From: a virus
Length of the DNA stretch: 64,000 bases
Virus record (IMG/VR): IMGVR_UViG_3300017989_000073
Location: 45,108-109,107 of that record
Reading direction: 5' to 3' (one strand)
Shown here in pieces: positions 48,514-62,905 of this stretch (positions are counted from its first letter, which is position 1; every line of letters begins with the position of its first letter). Below the pieces are notes generated by a model. That model saw nothing but the letters and a program-made list of their open reading frames with translations. It did no database searches and was not told the origin of the DNA. The position numbers were made by a program, and so were the translations under genes.

Positions 48514-50487
48514 ATGGAGGCTATCTTCACAGAGGCTCAGCGTGTTGGTCTGCAGGCTCTTGCAGAGGGCACGATAGACGACCAATGGATCAAGGGTGTG
48601 CGGGCTGGATGGAAGGCGCTGGCGAAGCAGACCAGAAAATTCAGGGGGCGCCGGTCAAAGGCCCCGAAGATTGACTTCCAGTACATCTACGATGCCTCGG
48701 AGGGCGGTGAGGCAGCACTCCAGAACGTCAAGCGCTACATCGGTCGGCTCCGTGACGACCTTCTCCTGAACAAGGGCTTCTGGGATCTTCCCTCTGAGGC
48801 GCAGGGGAAGAAAGAAGTCAGCATGATCCGGCGCTACAAGACCAAGGTCATCGACGAGCTGGACGCTGCCGAGGAGGCGATCGATGACGGGATCATGCGT
48901 GTCACGGGAGCCAAGACCGACGCGCAGGAGGTCGACCGCTTCGGTCACACCGGGTACTGGTACAAGCGGCTCCAGAACGACAAGGAGAAGTTCGACTGGT
49001 ATCTCAACGGTATCGGCGTCAACGTAGACAATGCCGTCGAGGAGGCGGACAAGGCAATCTCTGGTCGTCTCCTTCGGCATCTGACGAAGATCCTCGCCAC
49101 GTCATACTCCTACTCCATGGAGTACCCGACCACGGGGAGCGAGAAGTGGCGGAGCAAGAAGCGCTATGTGAAGAAGCAGGTTCCCATCGATTGGGGCGAG
49201 CACGAGCCTGAAGTGGTGCACCTTGGCAAGGCGACGGTTGTCTTCCAGGACATGCCGCGCATCGGGGATGAGCCACATAGCATCATCTCACCGCGAAAGG
49301 TAGGCTCGCATAGCTATACGAAGTCGGGAGGCTCTGAGACGAAGCTGACGTCGAGGACGAAGTACGGCGGCGGATACATGCACCCTCGGCGGCGAGCAGA
49401 ATTCGTCGATGGGCTCAAACAGGCCCAGGGGATGCTGCGGGCAGTCCGCCTCGGCAAGCTCTTCCGCGGGCACTTCATTGTGGAGCCGAAAGAACGGGCA
49501 GGCACGAACCAGCACGGTGCCCATTTCGGTGTTGGTGGCAGGTATTACCGCAAGGGGGACAAGATCCACCTCTACGGCAGCCTGAAGGTGCACGATATTC
49601 CAGGTCTGGCGATCCACGAGATCGGCCATCGGTACTGGTACAAACACATGACCAGGCAGGACCGGGCCAACTTCTCGAAGTGGTTCGGTGACGTTCCGGC
49701 TGTGTCCGAGTACGGGGGTGTGAGCCCAGCTGAGGACTTTGCCGAGGTCTTCATGTTCTACGTGATGAAGCAGAAGCTCACCAAGGACCAGCACGATCGC
49801 TTCCGGCAGTTCATGACTGGGCACCGGCCGCGCACAGAGTCGCTGGAAGAGGGCACGGCCACGAAAGCTCAGAAGTGCAAATACTGTGACGAACCCGCCG
49901 CAGTCAGCCTCATCTGGGCAGACGGTCGGGCCTACATCCCCGTCTGCAAGGCACACGAGCGCAAGGCGCGCAACCAGATAGCCTCGCAGAACGACTCCGT
50001 GTGCGACGTGAAACAGGTCGAGCAAGGGCCGATTGCCCCTCGCGGGCGCATGGAGCAGGCTCTGCGCCCCGCTCTCGACTTCGTGGAGGAGGCACCTCCG
50101 GGCGCTTACTTCGGTCTGCAGGCGGACCCTCGTCGCGCAGAGAGCGCGCTGGCCGAGGCTCCGGCAGAGTCACCCCCACGTGCGTCCATTGGACGCAGGG
50201 ACACTCCCCGCGGTGCGCTATTCCGGAAGCGCACGAGTAGCGATATGCAGGGGGTCAAGGCCGGAAAGCCCATCAAGCGCTCAACTGGCAAGGGCGTGAA
50301 TCGTCGGGGTCAGGACTCTCGGGGAAGCGTGGAGCGTCCGGACCGAACTCGGCAGGAGATTCCCGATTCCTTGTTGCAGATGCTGGGGTCGGACTGGTCG
50401 ACCATGCAGGCTCGGCGCGTGCACGACAATCGCATGACCATCAACATTGACGGAGTGAGATACTCGGTCTACACGAGGAAGGGCTGA
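48514..50487 (+). CDS. Large protein with gluzincin-type metallopeptidase domain
   Basis: 657 residues. H368-E369-I-G-H372 inside LAIHEIGHRYWYKH and the downstream SPAEDFAEVF (E407, E411) are zinc ligands and catalytic Glu of a gluzincin. The N-terminus MEAIFTEAQRVGLQALAEG recalls the T4 capsid-targeting peptide. A zinc-ribbon-like CKYCDEPAAV...CKAH (about 453-482) and a disordered tail with SLEEG, LAEAP and VEEAP sites follow. May be a packaged protease or an internal virion protein. Coupled to the next gene by TGATG. Confidence 0.7.
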   Translation: MEAIFTEAQRVGLQALAEGTIDDQWIKGVRAGWKALAKQTRKFRGRRSKAPKIDFQYIYDASEGGEAALQNVKRYIGRLRDDLLLNKGFWDLPSEAQGKKEVSMIRRYKTKVIDELDAAEEAIDDGIMRVTGAKTDAQEVDRFGHTGYWYKRLQNDKEKFDWYLNGIGVNVDNAVEEADKAISGRLLRHLTKILATSYSYSMEYPTTGSEKWRSKKRYVKKQVPIDWGEHEPEVVHLGKATVVFQDMPRIGDEPHSIISPRKVGSHSYTKSGGSETKLTSRTKYGGGYMHPRRRAEFVDGLKQAQGMLRAVRLGKLFRGHFIVEPKERAGTNQHGAHFGVGGRYYRKGDKIHLYGSLKVHDIPGLAIHEIGHRYWYKHMTRQDRANFSKWFGDVPAVSEYGGVSPAEDFAEVFMFYVMKQKLTKDQHDRFRQFMTGHRPRTESLEEGTATKAQKCKYCDEPAAVSLIWADGRAYIPVCKAHERKARNQIASQNDSVCDVKQVEQGPIAPRGRMEQALRPALDFVEEAPPGAYFGLQADPRRAESALAEAPAESPPRASIGRRDTPRGALFRKRTSSDMQGVKAGKPIKRSTGKGVNRRGQDSRGSVERPDRTRQEIPDSLLQMLGSDWSTMQARRVHDNRMTINIDGVRYSVYTRKG

Positions 50488-52556
50488 TGACTCCGGAGAA
50501 AGCATACAAGCGCGTCTACACGGCGTGGGCGATCTACAATGGCGACACGAGGCTCAAGCGCTCAGGGGTCGTCGAGTTTCATCAGCTGACCGACGAGGAT
50601 GTGAAGCTCGCGGCCAAGCACGCGAAGGGGCATCCCGGCAAGGAGAGCATCGTGAAGCAAGTACGAGAAGCGCGGCGCCATCACGAGACGACTTCGCATG
50701 AGCACCTCCACCGGCTCGTGGAGGCGAGGGAGGAAGACATGGCTCGAGATCACATGACCCATTTTCAGAAGCTTGCTGGCATCCGGCCGACGCTGCCGAG
50801 CCTGGAAGAGAAGGAGGGCATCGAGACCGAGGATGAGAAGCAACAGGAAGCCGCGACTCAAGCTTACTCGATCAAGGGGCTCAAGCCTTCGGACATGAAC
50901 AATTCGACGACTGTGATGGGTGCGCTCTACAAGTCGCTGCCCACCTGGTTGAAACGCCGGCAGGAGGCAGGACAGGTCACGCTCACTCACGGTGACGAGG
51001 TCAAGATCGGTGACTACAAGATCACCGGACAGTGGCACCGGAGCGGCAGCATCACTACGTACCTGTACAAGGGCCGGAAGGTGATTCAGTTCGCGAAGGA
51101 GACCTCTCCCGAGGCTGCGTACCGGGAGTTTCAGAACTACCTCAATTACGCGATCCATCACTACGAGCCTACCAAGGTGCCGTCGCTGCGGGTGGCCAAG
51201 AAGGCGTCGTTCCTTGCAAAGGGTCATGGTGTGATGCGAAAGACCGGGACTGGGTACGAGCGGATGCGTGTCGTGGAGGACGAGAACGCTCTGGACGAGA
51301 GCGACTACGACCTCTACCAGGGGCAGAAGCCCTTCAAGATCCAGGTCCAGCCTCCCGGGGGAAAGAGCTTTGTTGATATGTCCATGCCGGGCACGCAAGG
51401 CCGGATGGGCGCGGCGGATCGGACGTTGGCCGGGGCGAAGAAGATGATCGCCACCTTCCAGAAGATGGATCGCAAACACGGCGAGCCCCTGAAGTACCGC
51501 ATTCTGAAGGGCGGAAAGCCAGTCTACACCTCCGAAGGTGTTGAGCCTGAAGGGGATGACCTCGACGAAGCTGCTCGGTTCGAGGTGACCCTCAAGAAGA
51601 TGCTGCCGAACTACAAGCAGATGGCCAAGAAGATCCCGGGTATTCTCCAGAAGGGCGGGAAAACCTCTCAGACGGTCAATACCGCGCTGTTCGGCAACGA
51701 AGGTGCCGGGCAGATCTACAAGACCGAGGCTCTGCTAGCGTGGATGCGCCAGATGGGTGTGCTGGGCCACATGTCAGGGATATGGTATGTGAAGTCCAAG
51801 CAAGAAGGCATGGACGAGTCCGCGTATTACACGGCCAAGACCGAGCCAGACCGGGAGTTTGCAGCGGGTTGGGTAGCTGCCATGAAACGGATATCGGATC
51901 TCCCTGTCGAGGATGTCGAGCGCGGGGTGAAAAAGGCTGTGTCTGGCCGTAGCGCAGACTACAAGGTTGGCTACCAGACAGCCGTCGCCCACTGGAATGG
52001 GACAGCCACCAAGCATCTGAACCGAGCCCACGATCTGGGGCTCGTGAAGGCGTATTCCGGGTATCACGGACAAGGTCATTTCCGCCACCCCACAAATAGC
52101 GTCAAGTCGGTCTCGGAAAGCTGCGAGCGGTCAGATGGGCCTGTTTTGCTGGGGCGTACTGTCCTGGCCGAGAGCGTGGGGCAGTTCCGGACAATGTCGG
52201 GCATCGACCCGTTGCCCCGACGCCGCTTGGCGGAGGCGTCGAGCTTTGTTAGTGGTGTGCCGACTCGGAAGGAAGACCCCTTTGACAAGGTGAAAACCTA
52301 CAAAATCAAGGGGAAGGCCGGTGTTGAGGGTACCCAGCGCGGCTACGTTGTCTACGCCGATACAGACAAGGGTAAGGTCGATATCGCGTACTTCCCGGAC
52401 AAGGGGGGCAAGGAAGTCGATGCTGCCTACAATGCAGCTTCGGCGGCAGCCAACTCGATCAACAAGTACGGCAAGTACAGCCGCACGGGCGACCCGAGGA
52501 AGCGAGTTCAGAGTGTGCGGGTGAAGGGTAATACCCTGACCGTCCACTACAGATAA
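50487..52556 (+). CDS. Large multi-domain protein with [LI]xE sites, unknown
   Basis: 689 residues, not recognised. The first about 100 are helical and His-rich (EARRHHETTSHEHLHRLVEAREED). Candidate processing sites divide it: SLEEKEGIE near 110, ALDESDYD near 270, DLDEAARFE near 360, RLAEASSF near 580. Between them are a beta region (GDEVKIGDYKITGQWHRSGSITTYLY), a helical piece with TEALLAWMRQMGVL, and a C-terminal beta-alpha domain (GYVVYADTDKGKVDIAYFPDKGG). Probably a polyprotein-like internal virion component. Confidence 0.55.
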   Translation: MTPEKAYKRVYTAWAIYNGDTRLKRSGVVEFHQLTDEDVKLAAKHAKGHPGKESIVKQVREARRHHETTSHEHLHRLVEAREEDMARDHMTHFQKLAGIRPTLPSLEEKEGIETEDEKQQEAATQAYSIKGLKPSDMNNSTTVMGALYKSLPTWLKRRQEAGQVTLTHGDEVKIGDYKITGQWHRSGSITTYLYKGRKVIQFAKETSPEAAYREFQNYLNYAIHHYEPTKVPSLRVAKKASFLAKGHGVMRKTGTGYERMRVVEDENALDESDYDLYQGQKPFKIQVQPPGGKSFVDMSMPGTQGRMGAADRTLAGAKKMIATFQKMDRKHGEPLKYRILKGGKPVYTSEGVEPEGDDLDEAARFEVTLKKMLPNYKQMAKKIPGILQKGGKTSQTVNTALFGNEGAGQIYKTEALLAWMRQMGVLGHMSGIWYVKSKQEGMDESAYYTAKTEPDREFAAGWVAAMKRISDLPVEDVERGVKKAVSGRSADYKVGYQTAVAHWNGTATKHLNRAHDLGLVKAYSGYHGQGHFRHPTNSVKSVSESCERSDGPVLLGRTVLAESVGQFRTMSGIDPLPRRRLAEASSFVSGVPTRKEDPFDKVKTYKIKGKAGVEGTQRGYVVYADTDKGKVDIAYFPDKGGKEVDAAYNAASAAANSINKYGKYSRTGDPRKRVQSVRVKGNTLTVHYR

Positions 52557-54385: not shown

Positions 54386-55036
54386 ATGTCGTCCACGAAA
54401 AGAGGCGGTCAACGTACTCCCGCTGACGCCTATCCCACGCCTCCTTGGTGCGTTCACAGGCTGCTGGATCGGGTGACGTTGCCTTCCGGGCTGTGGTACG
54501 AGCCGTGTGCTGGGGACGGTGCGATTGTCCAGGTCGTGAACTCGCGACTCCCGAACGTGGCGTGGGCTCTGAACGAGCTGCGGTCGGAGATGGATGAGAC
54601 GCTGAGGCGATTGGAGCCCATGGCACCGGTGTCGGTTGGTGACATTTTGGACCCGGAGACACCGTTGCCTCCTCGGGATAAGACGGTGTGTATCATCACG
54701 AACCCTCCATATCGAATTGCTTGGGAGCTGCTGCACAAGATGTTGCGGGAGTTTCCAAACTCGTACATTGTGTTGCTGCTCCGGGTGAACTTCATCGCGT
54801 CCAAAGGGCGCCACGGGTTCATGAGCCAGTACATGCCCGATGTGTACGTGCTTCCGAATCGGCCGGGATTCAAGGCCTGGGGGAAGACCGATTCTCCCGA
54901 GTACGGGTGGTTCGTCTGGAAGCCATGGCCTCGGGCGCGAGCACGCGGGTTGATTGAGCTGCTCGACCTCACTTCCGTGGAGGAGCGGAAGAGAGTTGCT
55001 GATGCTGCGACTGTGTATTCTGAATCGGGCCGGTGA
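54386..55036 (+). CDS. DNA adenine-N6 methyltransferase-like protein
   Basis: 216 residues. EPCAGDG (39-45) is the S-adenosylmethionine-binding motif I and TNPPY (104-108) the catalytic motif IV of DNA amino-methyltransferases. PTPPWCVHRLL before motif I is usual for this group. The C-terminal domain is short, so specificity may be loose or need a partner. Likely use: mark phage DNA against host restriction. Transcribed from its own promoter. No restriction nuclease gene is near. Confidence 0.85.
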   Translation: MSSTKRGGQRTPADAYPTPPWCVHRLLDRVTLPSGLWYEPCAGDGAIVQVVNSRLPNVAWALNELRSEMDETLRRLEPMAPVSVGDILDPETPLPPRDKTVCIITNPPYRIAWELLHKMLREFPNSYIVLLLRVNFIASKGRHGFMSQYMPDVYVLPNRPGFKAWGKTDSPEYGWFVWKPWPRARARGLIELLDLTSVEERKRVADAATVYSESGR

Positions 55037-55353
55037 GATGGGTTATGGAGCGACAGAAGCAGCGCGTGTGGAGCGACGCGGACACGCCGCCGATGAGCGA
55101 CCCAGTGTGGGCCGAGTGGTCGGCCCCTCTCTTGGAGTTCCTGCTAAAACGTCCGCGTTCGTGGACAGAGTTGGAGACGTGGAGACGATCCCGGCGTGTC
55201 AACGGCTACCTGCTCCGGAATTGCCTGGCGTGGTTGGAGGAGGCGGGGGCTGCCCGGTCTGAAGGTACGGGCAAAGACTTGCTATGGATCGGCTGGGCGC
55301 CCGATATGACAGGAGATTACGATGGCGAAGCAACCGAAGAGTCAACCCGTTGA
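55033..55353 (+). CDS. Small winged-helix-like protein
   Basis: 106 residues. LLEFLLKRPRSWTELETWRRSRRVNGYLLRNCLAWLEEAGAARSEG reads as helix-turn-helix plus wing (about 32-78). A DNA-binding role is plausible. GTG overlapping the methylase stop is used; ATG at 55045 is the alternative. It ends inside the first codons of the FtsZ-like gene, so the three genes are translated as a unit. Confidence 0.5.
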   Translation: MRWVMERQKQRVWSDADTPPMSDPVWAEWSAPLLEFLLKRPRSWTELETWRRSRRVNGYLLRNCLAWLEEAGAARSEGTGKDLLWIGWAPDMTGDYDGEATEESTR

Positions 55354-56644
55354 CGATGGCGGAGATCCCCTCTACGACGAGCTGCCCGCGGTGCCGCGGG
55401 AGGCCTCGCCAGCGAAAGCAGCGAAGAACGTTGCAGCCAACCGCGATGTGGACGCAGTCGCGATGCGGCGCCGGTTCCAGGGGGCCGACATTGATCCGCT
55501 AGACGATGCGGGCGGTGGCGTCGACATTCCAGACTTCGGCGCCGAATACGAAGCTTCTTTCGATGGTTCTCGGGAGGTCGAGGACGACTTCGCTGGCGGG
55601 GAGACTCGCTCAGCTATCAAGATGGCTTTCATTGGCGCGGGTCAAGGAGGCGGTCGTATTGCTCAGGCCTTCTACGACATGGGCTACCGGCGCGTATGCG
55701 TGTGCAACACCACTCCACAGGACATGGCAGCTCTCACCATCCCGCATCAGCTCGTCATCGGCAACGATCGTGGTGGTGCTGGCAAGGACCCCGAGGAGGG
55801 GAAGCTTGCGGCCCAGGAGTCCTACGAAGACATCATGGATCTCATGATGCGGTCGTGGGGCGAGGGGGTGGAGCACGTCTACATTTGTGTCGGCGGAGGG
55901 GGCGGATCAGGTACGGGGTCGTGGCCGGTGCTGCTCGACGCCGCACGTGAGTACGCCAAGTCCACCAACATCGAGAAGCCCTTCTACAAGCACCTCGGTG
56001 TGATTATGAGCCTGCCGAAGCGCTCTGAGGGCTCACGAGTCCAGCGCAATGCGCACACAGCCATCACCGATGCGCTGAAGAAGTTGGAGAGCGGGAAGAT
56101 CGCGTCCCTCATCATCGTCGACAACGCGAAGATCCATGAGCTGTACCCCGGGCTTCCGGTGAAGAAATTCTGGCAGACGGCGAACCGGAACTTCGCCGGG
56201 GTGTTGCACACCTTCAATCTCCTGGCCGCCAAGGACAGCGACTACAACACGTTCGACCGAGCGGACTTCCGTAGTGTCGTGCAGAACGGCTTGATGGTCT
56301 TCGGCATGACGCGTGTGGACAAGTGGCAGGGGAAGGAAGACATCTCGAAGGCGGTGCGCCAGAACCTCAAAGGCACCCTGCTCGCTGACGGCTTCGATCT
56401 GAGCAAGGCAGACATGGCCGGTGCCATCGTCCTCGCCCACGACGAGATCCTGAGCCAGATTCCGATGGAGAACATTGACTACTCGTTCAACAGCCTCGGT
56501 CGGGCGCTGGGGAACGAGGGCATCACGCTTCACAACGGGATTTACGAATCGAAGGGTCGGGTATCGATGCGGGTCTTTACGATCATTTCTGGTCTGGAGG
56601 CTCCCCAGTCTCGTCTGGACGAGCTGGAGCAGGCTGCTCGCTAA
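55322..56644 (+). CDS. FtsZ/tubulin-superfamily GTPase
   Basis: 440 residues. After a disordered about 95-residue N-terminus, IKMAFIGAGQGGGRIAQAF (99-117) is the T1 loop, CNTTPQDMAAL (128-138) the base-sensing strand, GGGGGSGTGS (191-200) the tubulin signature loop T4, and VDNAKIHE (267-274) the T6 region. N309-x2-D312-x2-D315 stands where FtsZ keeps its GTP-hydrolysing T7 loop. So both halves of the inter-subunit site exist and it should form GTP-dependent filaments. Phage relatives centre or segregate DNA, but this one does not look like PhuZ. AGGAGATTACG precedes ATG. Confidence 0.85.
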   Translation: MAKQPKSQPVDDGGDPLYDELPAVPREASPAKAAKNVAANRDVDAVAMRRRFQGADIDPLDDAGGGVDIPDFGAEYEASFDGSREVEDDFAGGETRSAIKMAFIGAGQGGGRIAQAFYDMGYRRVCVCNTTPQDMAALTIPHQLVIGNDRGGAGKDPEEGKLAAQESYEDIMDLMMRSWGEGVEHVYICVGGGGGSGTGSWPVLLDAAREYAKSTNIEKPFYKHLGVIMSLPKRSEGSRVQRNAHTAITDALKKLESGKIASLIIVDNAKIHELYPGLPVKKFWQTANRNFAGVLHTFNLLAAKDSDYNTFDRADFRSVVQNGLMVFGMTRVDKWQGKEDISKAVRQNLKGTLLADGFDLSKADMAGAIVLAHDEILSQIPMENIDYSFNSLGRALGNEGITLHNGIYESKGRVSMRVFTIISGLEAPQSRLDELEQAAR

Positions 56645-56869: not shown

Positions 56870-56909
56870 TTCTAGCCTTGTACTTATGATCCATGATATA
56901 GAGGATGAC

Positions 56910-58880
56910 ATGGGTATTCCGACGATCGACACCAAGGGATGGCGGTTGCCGAAGCGGGGCAAGCATGATTCGCCCGAGGTGACCTACACAGACGAGATGT
57001 ACCTCAAAAAGGGTCTTCCGGTGACGCCGACTCCGACTCCATCGACGGGCGGTTCGGGCCTGCCGGTCGTCGACACACGTGAGTGGACCCTTCCGAAGAA
57101 GGAGGCGCCGCTGGAAGAGACCAAGTATGGTCCCGGCGGTCCTACCTACACCGAGCGGGAGCTGGTGGGTTATCTTCGCAAGCACAAGCGAGTCAGTGTG
57201 GGTGAGCTGGCCTACTCGTTCGGTGGCCATCCGCAGGCCCACACGAAGTTCCTCCAGGCCCTCGTGAAGAAGGGAAAGCTCACCTTTGTCCACCGCAAAG
57301 GCGGCGGGTTCTACACGCTTCCGACGCAGGCGGTCGAACACAGTCCCCTCGACGAGGTGCAGGAGTCTCCGTCCGAGGTGGCGATGGCTCTCTTGGGTGC
57401 CAAGTGGAACGCTCTGAAACGCGATGGGTGGCGGGCCGTGCCCTTCAAACTTCCGTCCGGGAAAAGGCTCTCCGATCTTGACATGCTGGGACCGCTGCCC
57501 CTGGCCAAGGTACGTGCGTTTCAGGACCGCGGGGTGATGCTCGTCCGTGAAGGCTCAGAAGCGGCACGTTCGGAGGATGAGCTGGATGAGTTCAATCCGC
57601 TCGACAACCTGAAGCCGAAAGGCACCGCTTCCGAACGTTTCGTTCAGTCCCGGAGCCCGAACTACGGCGAAGGGTGTGATGGGTCTTTCAAGCGTCGCAA
57701 AGCCGGCAAGCCCGTGAAAGGCAGGAAGGGCAAAGGCCGGGGTATGAGCGTTGGCCAAGGTGAAGGTCCCGTCGGTCGTCGGGCAGTGGAGGACGTGCAG
57801 AGCGTGCAGCGACGCTTGGCCGGGCTCGTCGAGTCCCAGCACATCGAATTCGCTGTAGGAACGCCGTATCGGCGTATGCCGGATGAGACGATGTTGGTCG
57901 AGGTGGAATCGGAGCAGGTCGAAGCCGCTGGTGAGCTGATCGGGAAGCACCAGGCGAGCACGGGTATGAAGATCGGGAGCCTCCCGTGGGTGGTAGTCAA
58001 GGCCACACCGACTCGAGTGACTGTGGCTTCTGGTTCAGGCGTCAACCCAGGCTCGAAGTTTTCTGGCAAAAAGTACGTGTTTACGTGGGATGGGACCGGC
58101 TATAAGCGCCAGGGTCAATACCTGCATACAGATGGCGTCTACGCTCTGAAGGAGTCTTTTCTCTCTTCCGAGCAGAAGGCTTTGGCTGGCCTGACTGAGC
58201 GCGCTCCGCTGCCCCGTCCGCTGCACGACACGAGGCCCGTGGCTTCGACCCGGACTCACGGTATCCTCGACGATGGTGAGGACGCTGGCGACGCCTACGT
58301 GGATCGAGTCCTGCGTGAGTCACGATGGTTCTTCCGCGACTTCGGCGATCTGGCACTGGGTGATCGCCCTTTCGGCGAGGCCCCCGGCGGTAGGTCGGGA
58401 CCGTGGCGGGGCTCCGATGACAAACCGGCAAAGACGCCCGTGGTCCGGCAGGGGAAGGTGAAGGGTGTTGTGGGGGGTGGAGCGCAGAAGAAGGCCAAGG
58501 CAAAGGCTCCTCCCGAGGATGTACCTGTTGAGGAGCGAGACTCTGGCGTCTCCCACGGTCTGAGATCTCTTGGACAGCACCTCAAGAGCACGGGACACCG
58601 GATGGGTCATGGCTCGCTGGCGCAGAAGGCGAAGGAGCGACTGCACGGCCACATTCGGAAGTTTGCCAAGAAGCACGGCATTGGAACGCACGCTGCGCCA
58701 GCCAAGAAGAAGGGGGAGCCCCCGAAGGTTCCGGGTAAGAAGGCGAAGCCTGGAGGTCCAAAGCAGGCCGCGCCGCTGGTAGGGCCGAAGATGAAGCGGC
58801 CCGGCGAGGATGCCTCGAAGCCGAAGGCCAAGCCGCGGTCCCGCCCGAAAGCGAAACCGAAGGCCAAGGCTGCCGAGTAA
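56910..58880 (+). CDS. Large protein with histone-H1-like basic tail
   Basis: 656 residues. Two N-terminal repeats share [TV][IV]DTxxWxLPK (TIDTKGWRLPKRG and VVDTREWTLPKKE). About 95-150 look like a winged helix (TERELVGYLRKHKRVSVGELAYSFGG, then LVKKGKLTFVHRKGGGFYTLP). LEETKYG, PLDEVQE and ELDEFNP are candidate [LI]xE sites. The C-terminal 130 residues are Lys/Pro/Ala-rich (KKKGEPPKVPGKKAKPGGPKQ), as in histone H1. Likely a DNA-bound internal head protein. ATG at 56910 follows GAGG; an upstream ATG has no ribosome site. Confidence 0.6.
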   Translation: MGIPTIDTKGWRLPKRGKHDSPEVTYTDEMYLKKGLPVTPTPTPSTGGSGLPVVDTREWTLPKKEAPLEETKYGPGGPTYTERELVGYLRKHKRVSVGELAYSFGGHPQAHTKFLQALVKKGKLTFVHRKGGGFYTLPTQAVEHSPLDEVQESPSEVAMALLGAKWNALKRDGWRAVPFKLPSGKRLSDLDMLGPLPLAKVRAFQDRGVMLVREGSEAARSEDELDEFNPLDNLKPKGTASERFVQSRSPNYGEGCDGSFKRRKAGKPVKGRKGKGRGMSVGQGEGPVGRRAVEDVQSVQRRLAGLVESQHIEFAVGTPYRRMPDETMLVEVESEQVEAAGELIGKHQASTGMKIGSLPWVVVKATPTRVTVASGSGVNPGSKFSGKKYVFTWDGTGYKRQGQYLHTDGVYALKESFLSSEQKALAGLTERAPLPRPLHDTRPVASTRTHGILDDGEDAGDAYVDRVLRESRWFFRDFGDLALGDRPFGEAPGGRSGPWRGSDDKPAKTPVVRQGKVKGVVGGGAQKKAKAKAPPEDVPVEERDSGVSHGLRSLGQHLKSTGHRMGHGSLAQKAKERLHGHIRKFAKKHGIGTHAAPAKKKGEPPKVPGKKAKPGGPKQAAPLVGPKMKRPGEDASKPKAKPRSRPKAKPKAKAAE

Positions 58881-60317: not shown

Positions 60318-60433
60318 AATCCCATGACTCGCCACTCCAGTCATTGACAGTCAGCCCCCCGAGGGCCTTCCCGCATTGCAGCCTGACATGGTGATCAATC
60401 CCCGCCGCGTATCCGTACGTTGCGGAGTTCTAT

Positions 60434-60508
60434 TCGTGGGTAGCTCAATGGTAGAGCGCCTGGACTCTCGAGTCCGGGAGGCTGGTGGTTCAAGTCCATC
60501 CCCACGAG
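60434..60508 (+). tRNA. tRNA-like gene with abnormal anticodon loop (CTC or quadruplet)
   Basis: Acceptor stem TCGTGGG/CCCACGA is perfect over seven pairs; T8-A9, D stem GCTC/GAGC, T stem GGTGG/CCATC and T loop TTCAAGT are all regular. The anticodon arm is not: CTGGA/TCCGG encloses an eight-base loop CTCTCGAG, or CCTGG/CCGGG a ten-base one, and the arm can zip up to a CTCG tetraloop. The gene is about three bases longer than its other arms predict. The anticodon reads CTC (Glu) or, as a four-base anticodon, CTCG. Confidence 0.7.
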
Positions 60509-60511
60509 CCC

Positions 60512-60585
60512 GCCGCAGAGGTGTTCCTGGTGGCACACCCGGTCTAATGAGCCGGGAGGACATGGTTCGAGCCCATGCTGCGGCA
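60512..60585 (+). tRNA. tRNA-like gene, anticodon AAT in standard register
   Basis: Acceptor GCCGCAG/CTGCGGC, D stem GTGT/ACAC with TCCTGGTGGC loop, anticodon stem CCGGT/GCCGG with loop CTAATGA, variable GAGGA, T stem CATGG/CCATG and T loop TTCGAGC all pair. Discriminator A. The anticodon reads AAT (Ile codon ATT), rare in bacteria, base 26 seems missing, and G stands at 37. It lies three bases after the first tRNA. Its T arm contains the start codon of the peptidyl-tRNA hydrolase gene. Confidence 0.7.
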
Positions 60586-60933
60586 TATGCCAAACTATTC
60601 GTGGTGGGGAGGCACGATCTTCCCCCAGGACTGCGCGTCGCTCAGATGTTCCACGCCCTACGCCGTTTTGCCTCGGAGCATCCCTACATTGAAGACCGCT
60701 GGTACAGGGAGTCCAACACCATCGTGCTCCTCGAGATCGACGGCGAAGACATCACAGCCCTGGCTGAGCGCGCTCGTGCTCGGAACCTCACCATGTCCGA
60801 GTTTTCCGAGCCGGGGGTAGCGAATGGCGCAGTCACCGCCATTGCGTTTGGCCCCGACGCTGAGCGGCTGCTCTCGTCACTCCCGCTTGCTTTGAGAGAA
60901 GCTCACGAGCCGTCAGAATCGCAGACTGGATGA
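60562..60933 (+). CDS. Peptidyl-tRNA hydrolase type 2-like protein
   Basis: 123 residues. RHDLPPGLRVAQMFHALRRF (17-36) and NLTMSEFSEPGVANGAVTAIAFGP with a final LPLAL fit the bacterial branch of Pth2 (R-x-DL-x2-G...AQ...HA; F-x-EP...TA-A). Pth2 frees tRNA from stalled peptidyl-tRNA. The start is the ATG after GGGAGGAC, which lies inside the tRNA gene: 24 bases are shared. A GTG at 60601 would avoid the overlap but cut the first beta strand. The end overlaps a minus-strand gene. Confidence 0.75.
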   Translation: MVRAHAAAYAKLFVVGRHDLPPGLRVAQMFHALRRFASEHPYIEDRWYRESNTIVLLEIDGEDITALAERARARNLTMSEFSEPGVANGAVTAIAFGPDAERLLSSLPLALREAHEPSESQTG

Positions 60934-61993: not shown

Positions 61994-62905
61994 ATGGGAG
62001 GACAGGCGTTTTCCGGACCACGGCTTCACGGGTTTCATTTGGAGCCTGAGAAGCTGGTCATCGTGGGCGGCGATGGGCCTAATGATGTGCCCGGTCGTGA
62101 CAGTGACGGGAACGTTCACCACCTCTACGACGAGCGCGTGAAGCTGCCGCTGAGCGAGGAGTTCATTCTCAACGTGATGACGCTGGGGGTGAAGAAGAAT
62201 GTTCTCATAACCAAGATCGATGGCAAGGGGTATGTAATCGACGGGCGGCAGCGGGTGCGCGCCGCTCGGGCCGCGAACAAGCGACTAATTCAGGTGGGCG
62301 AGCCACCGATTCGTGTTCCGGTTGTTCAGCAGGGTGGCGAAGAGCAGCTGCATATGCTGATCGGGATCAGCACGAACGAGTTCAACCACGCTGATACTCT
62401 GCTGGTGAAGGCCCGGAAAGCTCAGCGCTTGAAGGATCGGGGCCTCACCGCAGAAGAGATCGCCATGGCTTTTGGTGTCACACCTAAGTCGATCACGGTC
62501 TGGTCTCAGATGCTGTCGCTCAGTGAGTCCGTAAAGCAGGCGGTGGAGGCGGGCAAGGTGTCGGCCAGTGCTGCCGCACAGCTCCACACTCTCCCTCCGA
62601 CTGAGCAGAAGACACAGCTCGACATTCTCATGGAAGCGAGCAAAGAGACGGGGAAGCCTCCTACAGCGAAGGACACGGCGAAGGCGGCGAAGCGGGCGAA
62701 AGGTCAAGATCCGAGCATCGCTCCCCCTAAGAAGGTGCTCCGGTACATCGTCGAGAAGCGGCAGGTGCACGAGGATGTTCTGTCCGAGGATTTTGTGGCT
62801 GGCGTAGCGTTCGCCATCGGGCTTCGCGATGCGAAGTCGATCAGTGGTCTGTCGGACGTTGTGAAGACTGCCAAGGCCGCCCCCGCGAAGAAGAAGGGGG
62901 CGTAG
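61994..62905 (+). CDS. ParB/Spo0J-like protein
   Basis: 303 residues. VKKNVLITKIDGKGYVIDGRQRVRAARAAN (67-95) is the ParB N-terminal fold with the DGxxR motif, and LKDRGLTAEEIAMAFGVTPKSITVWSQMLSLSESVKQAVEAGKVSASAA is the ParB helix-turn-helix with its linker. ParB proteins bind CTP and centromere sites; lone phage ones often regulate genes or act as nucleases. No ParA is in the window. C-terminal about 60 residues differ from ParB and end basic. Behind its own promoter. Confidence 0.8.
   Translation: MGGQAFSGPRLHGFHLEPEKLVIVGGDGPNDVPGRDSDGNVHHLYDERVKLPLSEEFILNVMTLGVKKNVLITKIDGKGYVIDGRQRVRAARAANKRLIQVGEPPIRVPVVQQGGEEQLHMLIGISTNEFNHADTLLVKARKAQRLKDRGLTAEEIAMAFGVTPKSITVWSQMLSLSESVKQAVEAGKVSASAAAQLHTLPPTEQKTQLDILMEASKETGKPPTAKDTAKAAKRAKGQDPSIAPPKKVLRYIVEKRQVHEDVLSEDFVAGVAFAIGLRDAKSISGLSDVVKTAKAAPAKKKGA

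Follow-up and report, generated by a model that had tools for sequence, protein, structure and literature searches.

Among phage tubulins, PhuZ forms filaments that bring capsids to the phage nucleus; in a dead mutant the filaments are static and capsids become trapped on them (PMC7950403, PMC9067925). Tubulin has been called a distinguishing gene of the nucleus-forming Chimalliviridae, with a handful of cases elsewhere (PMC11835377); phage tubulins have otherwise been regarded as partition proteins of the plasmid type. The flexible C-terminal tail of TubZ drives assembly, is needed for filament dynamics and binds TubRC (PMC5322520). Here, I analysed an open reading frame (ORF) of 440 codons that lies exactly at 55322-56644 on the plus strand of a 64-kb stretch (hereafter the window), the last 64 kb of the 109,107-base virus record IMGVR_UViG_3300017989_000073. 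Its product is predicted to be a tubulin-superfamily GTPase with the signature loop and the activation domain, and profile, loops and tree all class it as TubZ-type, not FtsZ. The family to which it belongs is abundant in uncultured viruses, is mostly viral, and stands beside packaging or head genes in most loci. A TubZ-clade tubulin that is expressed late and forms a cytomotive filament serving virion assembly, in a phage without a known nucleus, is the explanation favoured here, although it is held tentatively, with doubt slightly outweighing belief.

The fold was as proposed in a sequence-only reading of this stretch, which had described a phage-encoded FtsZ/tubulin-like GTPase. Both Pfam matches of the 440-aa protein, to Tubulin and to TubZ-like_C (Table 1), were above the curated cut-offs and far beyond chance. 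AlphaFold was given nine sequences from the window and the viral loci as input, and returned a confident core with a predicted local distance difference test score (pLDDT) of 75-96 over most of its length. When set against FtsZ, TubZ, PhuZ and CetZ, the prediction contained the tubulin/FtsZ core and lay nearest to TubZ: the top Foldseek match of the core was TubZ 4ei7 (E 1e-22, template modelling (TM) score 0.66/0.75), with CetZ and FtsZ ranking after it among solved folds. The best viral structural match was a protein of an uncultured Caudovirales phage, A0A6J5RW92, which is annotated as FtsZ (TM 0.72, 30% identity) and is probably a member of the same family; a database annotation, and no study, was found for it. 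PhuZ came far behind among viral predicted structures, with TM 0.46-0.57 for that of the Noxifer phage. The start of the ORF is preceded by a strong Shine-Dalgarno sequence (CAGGAGATTACG-ATG), and the initial MAKQPK is kept in L005, a relative that is 83% identical.

Scans of IMG/VR with a broadening query returned 3, then 9, then 240 confirmed stretches, out of which 83 loci were read. A family profile built from 21 members matched the TubZ profile over nearly the whole core with an hhalign E of 2.5e-42, as compared with 1.5e-24 for FtsZ. In a tree in which archaeal FtsZ/CetZ was represented by one sequence, the family split from FtsZ/CetZ at 100%, together with TubZ and gp138 of Bacillus phage G; PhuZ formed a long branch with 59% support. 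The plasmid TubZ comparison sequences came from plasmids other than pXO1 and pBtoxis, and phage c-st was likewise outside the set. The family loops T3 GGAGK, T5 LPKxxEG, T6 VDN and T7 xxFDxxD match those of TubZ (GAG[KR], LP[KR]xxEG, VDN and xxFDxx[DE]), whereas the corresponding FtsZ loops read GAGANP, TxPFxxEG, PND and NxDFAD.

These comparisons place the family closest to TubZ of Bacillus-type plasmids and phage c-st, the tubulin of TubZRC systems, with which it shares the closest fold and the TubZ-like_C domain; it differs from TubZ in having no detectable TubR, iterons or C-terminal tail, and in its N-terminal arm and virion-gene neighbourhood. FtsZ and CetZ share the superfamily core, the signature loop and the two T7 aspartates, but match the profile more weakly, have a C-terminal linker and conserved peptide that the family lacks, and differ in T6 (VDN here, not PND) and in the T7 Asn, which the family does not keep. 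PhuZ of the Chimalliviridae (phiKZ, 201phi2-1) is likewise a phage-encoded tubulin of large myophages with a possible part in capsid transport here too, but structural similarity is low and the window phage has a T4-like head. A query with phiKZ chimallin gave no match, in a search that had no positive control. The putative FtsZ-like gp138 of phage G also groups on the TubZ side, but shows only ~28% identity to family member L025, has changed T1/T4 glycines and a long C-tail, and sits in a different neighbourhood.

The active site was complete in its nucleotide-contact loops and in its two catalytic acidic residues, and the signature loop GGGGGSGTGS was found at residues 191-200, as had been read from the sequence; its glycines G191, G193, G194, G195, G197 and G199 were invariant among the 83 aligned sequences. 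The further claim of an intact T7 loop held only in part. Both aspartates, D312 and D315, were D in 83/83 sequences, but N309, the proposed T7 asparagine, is off by one residue and was N in only 7/83. The FtsZ T7 loop is N-x-D-x-x-D, and its Asn position corresponds here to T310, which is Thr, Ser or Ala across the family. This Asn is missing from most of the compared plasmid TubZ sequences too, so its loss need not mean lost activity. The tubulin core is under purifying selection, with a ratio of nonsynonymous to synonymous substitution rates of ~0.08-0.11 when the window, L005 and L014 were compared, synonymous sites being near saturation for the window pairs. As a separate observation on the T7 loop, the tubulin gene of one family member is split exactly there by a 345-aa in-frame insert (L006:10850-11884) with intein-like ends (C...TGN, then T) and a weak match to Pfam Hint_2 (E 0.011); a literature search for inteins in tubulin or FtsZ genes found no paper.

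The family lacks the C-terminal tail of TubZ and carries an N-terminal arm instead. Between 5 and 32 residues follow the last strand in the family (16 in the window, after G424), whereas five plasmid TubZ sequences have 77-80. The disordered N-terminal arm of about 95 residues described by the sequence-only reading was borne out by AlphaFold, with disorder up to about residue 94 (pLDDT <50 at residues 1-65, 73-89 and 91-94). Arms vary in length from 37 to 193 aa across the family, and a short motif, [VILM]x[VILM]P[DE], was found in 74/83 of them, compared with a mean of 5.9 and a maximum of 14 after shuffling, which ignores relatedness. Despite the fivefold variation in arm length, the motif lies ~32 residues ahead of the G-loop in most members, and this near-fixed spacing argues for constraint on the motif. 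In the window it reads VDIPDF, which resembles the FtsZ C-terminal peptide LDIPxFL, and a peptide of the LDI type closes the FtsZ consensus. The likeness, together with the conserved distance from the core, would suit interference with host division, in which the protein or its FtsZ-peptide-like motif competes for division proteins or co-assembles with FtsZ. I consider this improbable: the six-residue likeness is weak, most family members have PDIPxP as their motif, the core is far from FtsZ, and a catalytic site and core kept by purifying selection go beyond the needs of a decoy.

The favoured explanation, a late filament for virion assembly, draws mainly on the genes around the tubulin across the family. 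The gene is single-copy, with exactly one Tubulin-family match per record in 14/14 records searched whole. The gene order of the largest clade runs from ERCC4 nuclease through terminase (phrog_2, 4.6e-23) and portal (phrog_16240 and others) to tubulin and to small genes, some of them resembling membrane or lipoproteins, then scaffold-like, cement-like and major capsid protein (MCP)-like genes; the scaffold likeness is weak, and the final protein is weakly like the SU10 MCP. Where at least 2.5 kb of upstream sequence was available (70 loci), a portal gene was found at most three genes upstream of the tubulin in 55, and in 47 of these the terminase as well; where the downstream sequence reached at least 7 kb (43 loci), scaffold-like and MCP-like genes followed in 25. 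A search of the PDB with the portal profile gave no match. Outside the largest clade, the tubulin precedes TerL and a T4-type portal in L013, follows a baseplate wedge gene in L015, and lies beside a head-tail adaptor in L012; these varied placements are a stronger point than the locus counts. The family-wide neighbourhood thus points to virion assembly, a role absent from the sequence-only reading, and a tubulin gene that occurs once per genome, next to those for portal and terminase, in phages whose heads are ordinary would fit late transport or positioning without a nucleus.

If so, the tubulin would assemble with GTP into dynamic filaments, treadmilling or dynamically unstable, late in infection. 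The cargo that these filaments position or carry might be procapsids, complexes of portal and terminase, or packaging sites, much as capsids are the cargo of PhuZ in phiKZ-like phages. The N-terminal arm may be a hook that grips this cargo or the neighbouring subunit and replaces the missing C-terminal tail. For the 440-aa protein itself, I infer filament formation, GTPase activity and a role in virion assembly. The full version of this proposal is possible but rather doubtful: a dedicated virion-assembly tubulin, derived from TubZ, tail-less and made with portal and terminase, whose conserved N-terminal hook moves or organises procapsids or packaging sites in nucleus-less phages, and which is widespread in the uncultured ones.

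Several points weigh against a role in virion assembly. The loci are related and the neighbourhood counts overstate their independence; neighbouring genes suggest co-expression, not function; and a single adjacency is weak, as every phage genome consists in large part of structural genes. In addition, the window tubulin itself is ~60 kb from the head genes, in a co-directional region past the tail genes with unassigned neighbours. The same head-module position in most loci, along with the loss of the tail that TubZ filaments use, would also be compatible with a monomeric GTPase or small factor for head assembly or packaging, or a virion part, acting without filaments. This has a small probability in my estimate: the T7 aspartates complete the active site of the neighbouring subunit in a filament, and their invariance (83/83) therefore implies head-to-tail contacts.

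Compared with filaments for virion assembly, a role in genome positioning is unlikely, yet it deserves more weight than the remaining alternatives. Here, filaments would centre or move replicating phage DNA, in the way that PhuZ acts on the phage nucleus, with no direct role for capsids. Movement of DNA or of DNA compartments is known for both PhuZ and TubZ (PMC4244570, PMC9178275), TubZ is the closest fold, and a ParB-like gene lies 5.3 kb downstream of the tubulin (61994-62905; phrog_1033, 9.8e-31; 67% in L005), a possible DNA-partition factor. However, no TubR was detected by profile, no iterons were found, the chimallin query was empty (again, lacking a positive control), and the genes linked to the tubulin are those for packaging and the head, not those for replication.

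The gene directly upstream bears on another alternative, in which a plasmid-like or carrier-state phage is partitioned by a type III (TubZRC) system. Plasmid TubZ loci have a gene of ~100-120 aa directly upstream of tubZ; in the window a 106-aa protein with a predicted winged-helix fold takes this place and would be TubR. The layout of a TubRZ operon fits, but was rejected as an explanation: among relatives, L005 and L014 alone carry the winged-helix gene, and in these two, the closest ones, other sequence separates it from the tubulin; in addition, there is no firm TubR signal. In a fold search the protein resembled many regulators without a firm match and with no TubR in the top 50, and against a presumed TubR set (plasmid proteins in the TubR position) it gave a weak profile match with a probability of 25%. 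No tubC-like iterons or centromere repeats were found near the tubulin gene, nor as tandem arrays in the window, and the C-terminal tail that binds TubR is absent. Partition of this type is thus very unlikely. Co-translation with an adenine methylase and the winged-helix protein had been noted as unusual, and the overlaps are real, with 4 nt between the methylase and winged-helix ORFs and 32 nt between the latter and the tubulin ORF. As a functional clue the operon did not stand, because the linkage is absent in relatives: the methylase lies beside the tubulin only in close ones, and the co-translation in the window is probably incidental.

Table 1. Features of the tubulin-like gene and its upstream neighbours, in window coordinates.
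Feature	Residues	Position	Strand	Basis or remark
Predicted TubZ-type tubulin-like GTPase, 440 aa		55322..56644	+	Pfam, AlphaFold, Foldseek, hhalign, tree
N-terminal arm, disordered, acidic	1-98	55322..55615	+	pLDDT <50 for nearly all of 1-94
Short arm motif VDIPDF	67-72	55520..55537	+	Conserved motif in family arms
GTPase domain	102-275	55625..56146	+	Pfam Tubulin 1.3e-13
Signature loop T4 GGGGGSGTGS	191-200	55892..55921	+	Invariant glycines in alignment
TubZ-like C-terminal domain	298-428	56213..56605	+	Pfam TubZ-like_C 5.5e-7
T7 catalytic loop NTFDRAD	309-315	56246..56266	+	D312, D315 invariant in alignment
Winged-helix protein, 106 aa		55033..55353	+	Predicted fold; probably not part of system
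DNA methyltransferase, NPPY motif		54386..55036	+	phrog_799 9.4e-38; neighbour only

The window phage carries genes for a T4-like portal, head protease, head protein, sheath, tape measure and baseplate, and judging from these it is a myovirus with a T4-like head and a contractile tail. Its portal gene, upstream of the window (G000:C1:31184-34282), contains an intein-like insert (C...VVHN, then S) between two T4-type portal parts. Large proteins around the tubulin (48514-50487, 50487-52556 and 56886-58880) had no significant PHROG matches; one of them has a HExxH metallopeptidase-like motif (HEIGH) and one a very lysine-rich C-terminus. Two adjacent tRNA-like calls at 60433-60585, one with the four-base anticodon ctcg and the other Ile (aat), share sequence with an ORF (60376-60933), itself conserved in L005.

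Family-bearing contigs reach about 210 kb and include at least two unrelated-looking head types. No close members were found among named phages and plasmids, where the best matches were distant FtsZ/TubZ. A first scan of a prokaryote collection with one genome per species gave no locus; a second prokaryote scan gave at least two among the matches listed, both on uncultured or metagenome-assembled contigs. A match labelled 'Acinetobacter phage MD-2021a' (L095) was rejected as a phage gene, as it belongs to a chromosomal ddlB-ftsQ-ftsA-ftsZ-lpxC cluster; the stretch seems to be host chromosome deposited under a phage name. No description of the family or its link to packaging genes was found in the literature searched, whose coverage left out most subscription papers and all preprints. 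A comparable case is AdsorpSeq viral population 18, a circular phage contig with an FtsZ homologue and without the nucleus protein, for which the authors suggest a possibly different system (PMC7452251); it is likened to the family by its published description.

Why phages need a cytoskeleton has been posed as an open question (PMC7950403). If the explanation favoured here is true, many ordinary tailed phages would use active transport inside bacteria, and the conserved arm motif would offer a direct handle for finding the cargo.
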